From the NCBI GenBank assembly GCA_944387315.1, contig CALXEL010000116.1, positions 1 through 64,000 on the forward strand: a stretch of DNA of 64,000 nt, read 5' to 3'. This DNA is from an uncultured Clostridia bacterium (GTDB lineage: Bacteria; Bacillota; Clostridia; Oscillospirales; Ruminococcaceae). How positions within the stretch are numbered: the first letter of the stretch is position 1; the number at the start of each line of letters is the position of its first letter. A model generated the notes under the pieces. That model saw only the letters and a program-made list of their open reading frames with translations. It made no database searches and was not told the origin of the DNA. The position numbers and the translations under genes are program-made. Of the stretch, positions 29,505-32,697 are shown in pieces.

Positions 29505-29539
29505 AAAAAGCCTGTAGCGTTTTGCTACAGGCTTTTTTT
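29503..29539. terminator. Bidirectional terminator
   Basis: 16-bp stem (29503-29518 with 29524-29539) with flanking A/T runs. The stop codon of the converging epimerase gene lies inside the right arm. Confidence 0.9.
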
Positions 29540-31387
29540 AGGCATTTGACAAACTGGTTGGCCAGAGGGATGAAAGGTGGGTACCAATTGGGTCATTGTT
29601 TTTAGCAGAGCGGAAAGGTCATTATTTTTTATGGCCTCTTCCAATAAGCCCAGGTTCTTTTCAATTTCTTTTACAGTTAAATCCACCGGCTGATTGATAA
29701 GAATGTGGCTGTTGGCTGTCGTGGAGGTGCGCTCTTCGGCCAAACAGATTTCTTCTGCCAGTTTCTCTCCCGGACGAATCCCGGTGAAAACAATGGGAAT
29801 ATCCACGCCTGGCTTCTTTCCCGCCAAACGGATCATATCACAGGCCAACTGATAAATTTTGATGGGTTTTCCCATATCCAAAATAAAGATTTCTCCCCCG
29901 TTTGCCATAGCGGCGGCTTCCAGTACCAGTTCCACTGCCTCGGGAATGGTCATAAAATATCGTGTCATATCAGGGTGGGTGACAGTGACTGGGCCCCCAT
30001 GGGCAATCTGTTTTTGAAAGGTAGGTACGACACTCCCATTGGAGCCCAGTACATTGCCAAAACGTACAGCGCACAATTTTGTGGTGGAAGTGTGCTCATT
30101 GAGCCACTGTATCATCAATTCAGCTATCCGTTTGGTGGCCCCCATCACATTGGTGGGATTGACAGCTTTATCGGTGGAAATTAAGATAAATCGCTGGCTA
30201 TGGTACTGTATTGCGGTGGTTGCCACATTGATGGTGCCGAAAATATTGTTTTTGACTGCTTCCAAAGGGCACAGTTCCATCATGGGAACGTGTTTATGAG
30301 CCGCCGCGTGGAGTACAATTTGTGGGTGGTATTTTTCAAAGAGTTGATTGAGCCGGCTGCTGTCCTGAATGGAACCCAATTCCAGCCGATAGCGCTGGCG
30401 ATCAAATTGTTTGGACAGTTCCTGATCCAAAGCAAAAAGGCCGTTTTCGTGGAAGTCTACCAGAATGACCAGTTTGGCCCCAAAGGTGAGGGTTTGACGG
30501 GAGATTTCTGACCCGATTGAACCGGCGGCGCCTGTAATCAGCACAACGGAATCCCGCAGCAGTTGTCCAACCGATTCCATATCCAGGTGGATTCCCTGGC
30601 GGTGTAGAAGCTCCTCTGGATTGATTTCTCCCAGGACAGGCTGGGTATGGGCGTTTTGATCGCTGAGTCCGAACCGTTTGATCCAGATTTTGGAGGACAC
30701 AGCCAGAGCAAGCAGCTGTTCCAACCGATCTGGAGAAATCTTGTCAATAGCCAGTACAATTCCCTTTACCTGGTAGTCGGATATCAATGGGCCAGCCTGT
30801 GCCAAAGTACCCAGCACTTTGAGCCCTCCCGCTCGGGTGCCTGGCCCAACGAAATCATCCAGGTATCCCACTGGGGTCAATCCCTCTTTGGCGTTTTCGG
30901 TGAGCCGTTCCGCTAACAGCTGGCCCAATTCACCGGCACCATAAATGAATACCTTACTGTTGTTGGGAGAAAAAATGCCCTTGGTGCGTAAAAAGGACAG
31001 CAAAAGCCCAAGGATGACCCGGCCCAGGCATTGGGCGGCGAAAAGAGAAAAACAGGTAATGGCGATCACTTCCCAGGGGACTCCTAAACCTTTGATGCGG
31101 TCGATCCACAAGATAACCCCTCCACAGGCCAATGCCACTACACATTGCCGCAAGGGCATCCAGAGGGCGGTACGCCGTATGTTTTTTTGATATCCGCCAA
31201 ACAGCATGGTAAACCCAATGGCAAGAAAACCATTGATGACAATGAGTTCTAATTGGTGGGTTAGGTAATATGCGGGAATGGGACGTACAAAGCTGAAGCT
31301 GAGGCGAAAGCCAGCGGCAATGCTAAAGGCTGCGGAAAGCAGGTCCCATAGGGTTAAACAAGTTACAATAAAAGAATGTTGGATCAT
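29525..31387 (-). CDS. CapD/FlaA1-type polysaccharide biosynthesis nucleotide-sugar dehydratase/epimerase
   Basis: 620-residue membrane enzyme. Four N-terminal helices (about 5-130) are followed by a CoA-binding/Rossmann region (VFIYGAGELGQLL) and an extended SDR domain with VLITGAAGSIGSEISRQ for NAD(P) binding, HAAAHKHVP, FILISTDKAVNPTNVMGATKR and FGNVLGSNGSVVP. Close relatives are UDP-GlcNAc 4,6-dehydratases such as PglF and CapD. The expected product is a precursor for capsule or glycan. The catalytic region reads STDKAV...M-x3-K, the dehydratase form. The ATG at 31387 follows GGAGGAAATCC. No other capsule genes are adjacent. Confidence 0.9.
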   Translation of the reverse strand: MIQHSFIVTCLTLWDLLSAAFSIAAGFRLSFSFVRPIPAYYLTHQLELIVINGFLAIGFTMLFGGYQKNIRRTALWMPLRQCVVALACGGVILWIDRIKGLGVPWEVIAITCFSLFAAQCLGRVILGLLLSFLRTKGIFSPNNSKVFIYGAGELGQLLAERLTENAKEGLTPVGYLDDFVGPGTRAGGLKVLGTLAQAGPLISDYQVKGIVLAIDKISPDRLEQLLALAVSSKIWIKRFGLSDQNAHTQPVLGEINPEELLHRQGIHLDMESVGQLLRDSVVLITGAAGSIGSEISRQTLTFGAKLVILVDFHENGLFALDQELSKQFDRQRYRLELGSIQDSSRLNQLFEKYHPQIVLHAAAHKHVPMMELCPLEAVKNNIFGTINVATTAIQYHSQRFILISTDKAVNPTNVMGATKRIAELMIQWLNEHTSTTKLCAVRFGNVLGSNGSVVPTFQKQIAHGGPVTVTHPDMTRYFMTIPEAVELVLEAAAMANGGEIFILDMGKPIKIYQLACDMIRLAGKKPGVDIPIVFTGIRPGEKLAEEICLAEERTSTTANSHILINQPVDLTVKEIEKNLGLLEEAIKNNDLSALLKTMTQLVPTFHPSGQPVCQMPKKSL

Positions 31388-31592
31388 GGATTTCCTCCGC
31401 TTTGCTCTAATACCGTTAGTATGCCGCGTATTGGGTGTTTTACCCAACCAAAAGTATAGAGAAAACAGAAAAAACCAAAAACAAAAATATACTCTAAAAC
31501 AGTGAAATTGGGCGAAATTTCTTTAATTTTACTCTATTTTTACAAACAACTTCAGATATTGCCTATTTTTTCTTTGTTTTGCCAAGAATCTC

Positions 31593-31620
31593 TTGAAATC
31601 ACGTTTTTATGTGGTATAAT
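31593..31620 (+). promoter_or_regulatory. Promoter of the corA leader
   Basis: TTGAAA (31593-31598), 16 bases, TATAAT (31615-31620). Transcription would start near 31627, leaving a leader of about 140 bases before corA that contains the upstream reading frame. Confidence 0.75.
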
Positions 31621-31662
31621 AACCAATGGTTTATTCTAATAGTGATTGCAGGAGGTGAGGTT

Positions 31663-31737
31663 GTGAGTCCGGACCCTGGAATATGTGGCATATCTGAAAA
31701 ATGGAATCAAATATCGGGGAATGGGCACACAATTTAG
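31663..31737 (+). CDS. 24-codon leader peptide (uORF) upstream of corA
   Basis: A GTG codon at 31663 stands five to six bases after the strongest Shine-Dalgarno in the region (AGGAGGTG, 31650-31657) and opens a frame of 24 codons ending TAG at 31735-31737, 30 bases before corA. The peptide begins (fM)-S-P-D-P-G-I-C-G. Alternating Pro and acidic residues at the N-terminus is the feature that destabilises ribosomes at low Mg2+ on MgtL (M-E-P-D-P) in enteric bacteria. The start codon context, position and the downstream Mg2+ channel suggest a Mg2+-sensing leader; this is a prediction from sequence alone. Confidence 0.6.
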   Translation: MSPDPGICGISEKWNQISGNGHTI

Positions 31738-31757
31738 CCGTCCCCGGGAATAGGGGA
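31715..31757 (+). promoter_or_regulatory. Two mutually exclusive hairpins controlling the corA ribosome-binding site
   Basis: TCCCC at 31741-31745 can pair in two ways. With CGGGGA (31715-31720), which lies inside the leader frame, it forms a hairpin extended by GGC/GCC (31724-31726 with 31737-31739). With GGGGA (31753-31757) it forms a seven-base-loop hairpin that hides the corA Shine-Dalgarno. A ribosome on the leader codons would decide which one forms. Confidence 0.5.
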
Positions 31758-31767
31758 AGCAATAGCG

Positions 31768-32697
31768 ATGATACGTTTTTACAAGGGAGTGGACGGCCGG
31801 GTTTCCCAACTGGCAGAATACGATGAGGGCTGTTGGATTTCGGCGGTTTCCCCCAGCGAGGATGAGATCAATTATCTGGTACATGAGGCAAAAGCGGATC
31901 CGGAATTTGTGCGGGCTGCTTTGGATGAAGAGGAATCCTCCCGAATTGAAACAGAAGAGAATCAAACCCTGGTCATTGTGGACGTCCCGGTAGCGGAACA
32001 GCAGGACGACGCAACGGTGATCTATTCCACTATGCCTATGGGGATTATTTTGACACCAGCCAATGTGATTACTGTATGTCTGCGGGAGAATATAGTGATC
32101 AGTGATATAGCTGGTGGGCAGGTTAAAAATGTACAGACCCATTTAAAAACCCGTTTTTTGCTAAATTTGTTGCTGCGGGTGGCCTCCCGTTTTTTGTTTT
32201 ACCTTAAGCAGATTGACCGTATGTCCTCCCGCACTGAAAAGCAGCTTCATCAGTCGATGAAAAACCAGGAGCTGATCCAGCTGTTGGGATTGGAAAAATC
32301 CCTGGTGTATTTTTCCACTTCGCTGAAATCCAATGAGATTACTTTGGAGAAAATTTTGCGGGGACGTTTTATCAAACTGTATGATGAGGACCAGGATATT
32401 TTGGAGGATGTGCTCATTGAGGTCAAACAGGCCATTGAGATGTGTAACATCTATTCCAGCATTCTGTCTGGAACCATGGATGCCTTTGCCTCCATTATCT
32501 CCAACAATCTGAATATTGTTATGAAGATTTTGACCTCCCTGACCATTGTCATGGCCATTCCTACAATGGTTTCCAGTTTTTATGGAATGAATGTGGACTT
32601 TTTGCCGCTGCCTTTTTTCTGGTTCCCAGTATTGCTTTCGGTATTGCTCACTGGGTTGGTGGCATTGATCCTTGTGAAAAAAGGAATGTTTCATTAA
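31768..32697 (+). CDS. corA: CorA-family magnesium/divalent cation channel
   Basis: Homopentameric divalent metal channel, 309 residues. A cytoplasmic alpha/beta domain (about 1-130) and a long helical stalk lead to two C-terminal transmembrane helices. The selectivity motif GMN is at 273-275 in YGMNVDFLPLP. The C-terminus ends in a basic KKGMFH tail as usual. CorA proteins carry Mg2+, and some members Co2+, Ni2+ or Zn2+. The start follows AGGGGAAG at 31752-31759, which can be sequestered in a hairpin, and a leader peptide frame precedes it. Confidence 0.93.
   Translation: MIRFYKGVDGRVSQLAEYDEGCWISAVSPSEDEINYLVHEAKADPEFVRAALDEEESSRIETEENQTLVIVDVPVAEQQDDATVIYSTMPMGIILTPANVITVCLRENIVISDIAGGQVKNVQTHLKTRFLLNLLLRVASRFLFYLKQIDRMSSRTEKQLHQSMKNQELIQLLGLEKSLVYFSTSLKSNEITLEKILRGRFIKLYDEDQDILEDVLIEVKQAIEMCNIYSSILSGTMDAFASIISNNLNIVMKILTSLTIVMAIPTMVSSFYGMNVDFLPLPFFWFPVLLSVLLTGLVALILVKKGMFH

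Follow-up and report, generated by a model that had tools for sequence, protein, structure and literature searches.

In the 64,000-nt stretch of clostridial DNA analysed here (the window), the gene for a CorA-family channel is preceded by a short upstream open reading frame (uORF), which raises the question whether a ribosome on this frame decides over the translation of corA. A preliminary description had proposed that ribosomes fall off at the start of the uORF at low Mg2+ and that corA is translated as a result. The comparisons presented below indicate a uORF that looks translated and whose N-terminus is under constraint (M-x-x-D/E-P and variants), together with the mutually exclusive helices 1:2, 2:3 and 3:4, numbered after the RNA segments that form them. 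We consider it likely that the corA leader is a translational attenuator that is read by the leader peptide and responds to Mg2+ via acidic and proline codons. The Mg2+ dependence, the abortion of ribosomes and the direction of control are parts of this reading that we infer.

The corA locus and its leader

The gene corA (31768..32697, + strand) encodes a divalent cation channel of 309 aa with the GMN motif. The protein reached 174.8 bits with Pfam PF01544 (cut-off 27) and 93 with the NCBIfam equivalog model TIGR00383 (cut-off 200.75). Since the latter score lies below the cut-off for CorA equivalogs, Mg2+ is a likely rather than a proven substrate. The upstream neighbour (29525-31447) lies on the minus strand, opposite to corA, so that the leader needs a promoter of its own. 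This neighbour resembles the group of polysaccharide nucleotide-sugar 4,6-dehydratases, the best models being PseB and FnlA with scores below their cut-offs.

A sigma-70-type promoter (TTGAAA-16-TATAAT, 31593..31620, + strand) with an extended -10 TG was found upstream of the leader frame, as had been described before, and transcription is predicted to start at about 31627. The promoter shows 11/12 consensus matches, which by themselves are weak evidence, since 3.6 such sites are expected by chance at a threshold of at least 9/12. The pattern TGNTANNNT was present in 29/66 non-redundant leaders, compared to a fraction of 0.17 in shuffles.

The coordinates given earlier for a 24-codon frame with a strong Shine-Dalgarno (SD) sequence 30 nt before corA were confirmed. 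The SD sequence AGGAGG (31650..31655, + strand) lies 7 nt before the GTG start codon (31663-31665) with a duplex energy of -15.7 kcal/mol. The uORF (31663..31737, + strand) comprises 24 sense codons, is in frame with corA and ends with TAG (31735-31737), from which it is exactly 30 nt to the corA ATG at 31768. Its translation, MSPDPGICGISEKWNQISGNGHTI, begins with MSPDP, in agreement with the S-P-D-P reported after the initiator; the codons 3-5 (CCG GAC CCT, 31669..31677, + strand) encode Pro-Asp-Pro, the putative ribosome-destabilising motif.

A DNA pattern for the uORF start matched the 1.98-Mb genome at a single site, the corA leader. In 295 genomes of the order, 6/7 matches precede corA, while a second pattern gave 17 matches in 398 genomes, 6 of them before corA and the others unassigned, with 5 matches for the reversed control pattern. 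The idea that the same leader also stands ahead of other genes was dropped, the genome-wide patterns having returned essentially only corA.

Conservation of the uORF among relatives

Three collections provided the relatives: GTDB genomes, in which a scan gave 70 loci, 295 genomes of the order, of which 88 have the corA orthologue, and 398 genomes of the phylum, of which 116 have it. Inspection of their upstream regions revealed, in most cases, a short ORF preceded by a strong SD. In a peptide-blind survey of 260 corA upstream regions from Bacillota, the uORF with the best SD was chosen without regard to its peptide, and the upstream regions of neighbouring genes in the loci served as controls. 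A uORF with an SD below -10 kcal/mol was found at 169/260 corA loci, compared to 13/230 for the other genes and 107/1300 for shuffled sequences. Among the distinct uORFs chosen in this way, 110/140 (79%) carry an acidic residue and a proline within residues 2-6, compared to 7% for shuffled sequences and 8% for other uORFs, which bears out the expectation that the uORF start and the early D/E-P are conserved across orthologous leaders. The composition of residues 2-5 in the same survey (acidic 0.31, Pro 0.26) exceeded that of the controls (acidic 0.05-0.12, Pro 0.03-0.10), and the enrichment was gone at residues 7-12, which resembled the controls.

The starts found in the order include MNPDPGS, MSPDP, MSPEP, MGTDP and MSADP, while those elsewhere in the phylum include MDDP, MDGDPS, MDSGP, MESDPS and MDDHP. 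In a set selected for the motif, residue 4 is D/E in 91/107 and residue 5 is P in 95/107 distinct uORFs; a further count of 128/156 is likewise motif-selected, so the real test is the peptide-blind survey. Single-base codon differences were synonymous in 54% of cases at codons 2-3, 30% at codons 6-8 and 22% at codons 9-14; the sequence pairs compared are interdependent, and about 0.25 as the neutral value is our own rough figure. A synonymous fraction of 1.00 at codon 5 was discarded as circular, the set having been chosen for Pro5. Loci without the uORF and its pairing would speak against a conserved leader. Most loci are not of this kind, but the uORF is missing in some relatives, such as L002, L003, L057, L116 and L150.

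The strong SD and the conserved N-terminus would also be expected if the uORF encoded a functional small protein, such as a partner of CorA, with the regulatory appearance being secondary. Against this stand the residues after about position 8, which are not conserved, the length, which ranges from 11 to 57 aa, and the codons 9-14, which show no constraint at the amino-acid level, so that we regard a small protein as hardly credible. A constraint that is confined to the start of the peptide and leaves the rest free fits a ribosome-destabilising leader better. The comparison yielded both a uORF with its own SD and coding constraint, as in attenuators, and acidic and proline residues in the first few codons, as in peptides of the MgtL/MgtQ type, a class that is further characterised by abortion at this motif and its relief by Mg2+ and bL31.

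The same peptide start bears on the nature of the trigger. The attenuator could respond to a shortage of charged tRNA-Pro, which is sensed by mgtP of Salmonella (PMC8092293), or to a general proline pause of the EF-P type, instead of Mg2+, and Pro at residue 5 indeed varies least of all residues in the motif-selected set. Yet the acidic residues are about equally constant, many uORFs outside the order contain one proline and two acidic residues (MDDP, MDGDP), and all four proline codons are in use. Together with a metal channel as target and an M-box in some leaders, this makes a proline-specific trigger unlikely, and Mg2+ remains the preferred cue.

Alternative helices of the leader RNA

The leader RNA contains four segments, all on the + strand. 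Segment 1 (31654..31671), the region of the uORF ribosome binding site (RBS) and start, pairs with 31723-31739 in the minimum free energy (MFE) fold and in the partner-swap comparison. Segment 2 (31714..31739) forms the 3' part of the uORF and comprises UCGGGGA (31714-31720), which pairs with segment 3 in the putative ON state, and 31723-31739, which pairs with segment 1 in the putative OFF state. Segment 3 (UCCCCGG, 31741..31747) is an anti-SD sequence that pairs with either segment 2 or segment 4, the corA SD (GGGGA, 31753..31757), which is hidden in hairpin 3:4. More precisely, UCCCC (31741-31745) has two possible partners, UCGGGGA (31714-31720) inside the uORF and GGGGA (31753-31757), and cannot pair with both at once. 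A pyrimidine run at 31741-31745 had been noticed before as CCCC; the run there is UCCCC, and CCCC proper covers 31742-31745. The preliminary description had further proposed two mutually exclusive hairpins, one of which hides the corA RBS, and this is supported by covariation and partner swapping. It had overlooked helix 1:2 (31654-31671 with 31723-31739), which has the strongest statistical support of the helices.

For the partner-swap test, the pairing energy of a leader's own segments was compared to that of segments exchanged between species in 66 non-redundant leaders. Helix 1:2 showed -20.6 kcal/mol for own compared to -15.9 kcal/mol for swapped segments (z -12.9, 0/5000) and helix 3:4 showed -13.3 compared to -10.8 kcal/mol (z -8.8, 0/5000), while the unrelated pair of segments 1 and 4 gave a z of -1.5. 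A replicate with 63 other leaders, which have no close sequence in common with the first set and belong mostly to different lineages, gave a z of -11.2 for 1:2 and -8.4 for 3:4. Since the two sets are still related by descent, these z-scores overstate independence. Stems of at least 5 pairs were seen for 3:4 in 62/66 leaders and, overlapping segment 3, for 2:3 in 56/66 leaders, numbers that are descriptive since these stems were searched for.

In an alignment of 15 sequences, helix 2:3 was 92.5% paired with changes on both sides at 5/8 pairs, and its covariation of 0.450 exceeded both the shuffled value of 0.240 (0/500) and slid versions of the helix (at most 0.173). For helices 1:2 and 3:4 together, the alignment was 84.5% paired with a covariation of 0.286 compared to 0.197 for shuffled sequences (0/500). 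The region forming 2:3 also folds better than dinucleotide shuffles, with a mean z of -2.6 (n=66) and -1.8 for the window. Mutually exclusive helices with compensatory changes, one of them covering the main RBS, were observed, as is expected of an attenuator. An intrinsic terminator was rejected as the general output, a U-run before corA being present in few leaders only.

A structured leader with an RBS-sequestering hairpin ahead of a Mg2+-channel gene could in principle also be a riboswitch, with a direct Mg2+ aptamer and an incidental reading frame. However, an Rfam search of the window leader gave no match (a Pseudomonas sRNA at E 0.68 is a chance hit), and the covariance model of the M-box (RF00380) matched neither the window leader nor the whole genome. 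Moreover, conservation lies at the amino-acid level in codons 2-5 and in pairing elsewhere, and no conserved aptamer-like sequence was seen. A ligand-binding RNA is thus very unlikely here, and we retain the peptide-read attenuator.

Ribosome position and access to the corA SD

We computed the energy needed to open the corA SD (its opening cost) with a ribosome placed at each codon of the uORF; the main model allowed folding solely downstream of the ribosome, which is the usual assumption. With the ribosome at codons 1-9 the mean cost was 5.0-5.3 kcal/mol; it rose to 8.6-9.5 kcal/mol at codons 13-17 and was 8.9 kcal/mol without a ribosome. Leaders with a shuffled middle part showed a flat cost near 5 kcal/mol, which equals the value for codons 1-9. 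For the window leader the cost was 1.1-2.2 kcal/mol at codons 1-13 and 7-8 kcal/mol at codons 14-21, and with the ribosome at codon 5 the MFE fold of the downstream RNA is hairpin 2:3, leaving the corA SD single-stranded. Modelling thus gives a trp-like switch, in which a ribosome within the first 10 or so codons would expose the corA SD, while a ribosome past codon 13 or so, or none at all, would leave it hidden.

A second model, which masks the ribosome footprint and permits pairing across the ribosome, gave the same trend over all leaders. For the window leader with a longer 5' end, the change was modest under this assumption (SD unpaired from 0.20 to 0.36), so the sharpness of its switch results from restricting folding to the RNA downstream of the ribosome. 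In the thermodynamic model, access to the main RBS tracks the position of the ribosome, as in an attenuator, and does so more weakly for the window.

The SD also becomes easier to open with a ribosome on the last uORF codons, since the ribosome then covers segment 3; the cost falls to a mean of about 4.6 kcal/mol, and to about 1 in the window. Some activation of corA by completed uORF translation is possible in these models. This could be extended to a translational coupling, in which reading the uORF to its stop opens 3:4, so that corA would be ON with efficient uORF translation and OFF with abortion. Such an arrangement is at odds with the position of the uORF stop relative to segment 3, which ranges between -30 and +23 nt among leaders, while most of them have the start of segment 2 near uORF nt 40-60. 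It would also have no use for the covariation in helix 2:3, which is relevant only if early ribosomes free the SD, and regulation in this direction would be strange for an importer. Coupling as the main principle is accordingly judged quite unlikely compared to an attenuator in which the early ribosome activates corA.

Magnesium as probable cue and proposed mechanism

The genome contains one mgtE, which has no acidic/Pro uORF upstream. In five orthologous leaders, an M-box precedes the uORF and corA (L035:1571-1733, L038:1655-1815, L039:1648-1808, L041:1525-1687, L042:1440-1612); each of these mRNAs seems to carry two Mg2+ sensors in tandem. Low Mg2+ is the best-supported cue, to which the CorA target and the five M-boxes point indirectly.

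With ample Mg2+, ribosomes would get past the acidic and proline codons, cover segment 2 and complete the uORF, after which helices 1:2 and 3:4 would form and hide the corA RBS (OFF). When Mg2+ is scarce, codons 3-5 would destabilise or hold the ribosomes, in the manner of the EPDP of MgtL. Pausing ribosomes, or ribosomes that repeatedly initiate and abort, would keep segment 1 occupied and segment 2 free, so that helix 2:3 could form, expose the corA SD and allow more CorA to be made (ON). The conserved acidic and proline codons coincide with the stretch of codons in which a ribosome turns corA on in the models.

Of the fall-off at S-P-D-P proposed before, the exposure of the corA SD by an upstream hairpin (2:3) is retained, while plain fall-off would be insufficient, because helix 1:2 is predicted to make the bare RNA OFF. 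Since helix 1:2 hides the uORF RBS, the leader is predicted to be OFF when free of ribosomes, and corA would be ON only if the first codons are being translated. A drop-off that leaves bare RNA would be a return to OFF, which implies either pausing or initiation frequent enough to hold segment 1. The strong SD of the uORF favours frequent initiation over pausing, these kinetic steps being ones that we infer. With helix 1:2 added, the earlier interpretation is partly supported.

Since the same arrangement recurs across Bacillota, it is probably a widespread, undescribed Mg2+-responsive switch in this phylum, as judged from the sequences. A wider reading, which we hold to be slightly better than an even bet, is a class of leader peptides that sense Mg2+ throughout the phylum and arose independently of MgtL and MgtQ, in which ribosome destabilisation at an N-terminal D/E-P motif would drive several outputs on corA: translational attenuators, terminator-like hairpins, uORFs that overlap corA and tandems with the M-box.

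Relation to known systems

The closest mechanism is that of Salmonella mgtQ, where the helices 1:2, 2:3 and 3:4 control mgtB translation and an 8-aa ORF contains acidic codons (PMC8092293). In both leaders, a short and strongly SD-preceded ORF with early acidic or proline codons lies before a transporter gene, for Mg2+ in the case of mgtB and probably so in the case of corA. In both, 3:4 hides the transporter RBS, and 2:3 together with translation is favoured by a ribosome on segment 1, as predicted by the models for corA and published for mgtQ (PMC8092293). Unlike mgtQ, which is enterobacterial, intergenic in mgtCBRU, 8 aa long and directed at MgtB, the corA leader is found in Bacillota, has its own promoter and 5' leader, encodes mostly 11-35 aa and precedes CorA. 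No sequence relationship or common ancestry of the two is apparent.

At the EPDP of MgtL, ribosomes are destabilised and drop off at low Mg2+ (PMC11282234, PMC11552253). MgtL (MEPDP) shares with the corA leader the acidic/Pro motif in the first five residues and, putatively, the control in cis of a Mg2+ importer (PMC11282234, PMC11552253), but acts on mgtA via Rho-dependent termination, whereas the output of the corA leader looks translational, or terminator-like in L011 and L028. The E. coli corL controls corA through Rho (PMC11552253), and the corA motif RNA has been reported from Gammaproteobacteria only (PMC6429828). They resemble the present leader in a uORF before corA and two alternative leader folds (PMC11552253, PMC6429828). 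However, corL acts through Rho and has few acidic and proline residues, compared to the acidic/Pro-rich start found here (PMC11552253), and, unlike the gammaproteobacterial motif, the present leader belongs to Bacillota and has no Rfam match.

The M-box (ykoK) likewise senses Mg2+ in cis on Mg2+ transporter genes of Firmicutes, in tandem with the uORF at the five loci mentioned, but is an aptamer RNA that is absent from the window leader and its genome. For mycobacteria, an M-box followed by a uORF is reported, without a destabilisation model in the part of the source available (PMC12810186). As in attenuators of the trp and erm types, the position of a ribosome on the leader ORF would select between overlapping helices, though, instead of tRNA charging or an antibiotic, the presumed cue would be Mg2+ together with the N-terminal part of the nascent peptide.

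The switch had been put forward as new for a Firmicutes CorA. In the open-access literature searched, no Bacillota case of such a leader was found, while the three-helix translational logic has been published for Salmonella mgtQ/mgtB (PMC8092293). The arrangement is widely distributed, a close mechanism is already known in Salmonella and, within the literature searched, the occurrence in Bacillota is apparently new. As far as this literature shows, Mg2+-dependent destabilisation of ribosomes serves as a sensor in enterobacteria only. If it also did so across Bacillota, ribosome stability as a gauge of Mg2+ would have arisen more than once or would be ancient, and Mg2+ control in genomes free of M-boxes, such as that of the window, would be accounted for. 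The conserved leaders supply more than 100 natural sequence variants, with which destabilising nascent peptides could be told from others.

Variants among relatives

At seven loci (L027, L037, L077, L078, L080, L084, L106), the uORF (NPDP/KPDP) overlaps the corA start out of frame and ends 26-112 nt inside corA, which leaves no room for the helices. Ribosomes finishing such a uORF could block the corA RBS directly, an occlusion that would work without helices. In L011 and L028 (Anaerotruncus), the last 60 nt before corA contain the SD-sequestering hairpin 3:4 followed by U7, an element that looks like an intrinsic terminator and overlaps the corA RBS.

The corA uORFs of Anoxybacillus (L052-L055, L058) and of L183 carry EPEP or EPDP at residues 6-12 or so instead of 4-5, the uORF of L183 with the exact MgtL motif EPDP. 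As a separate observation, two related Clostridia have a fluoride riboswitch a short distance downstream of corA (L043:1734-1805, L044:2967-3038).
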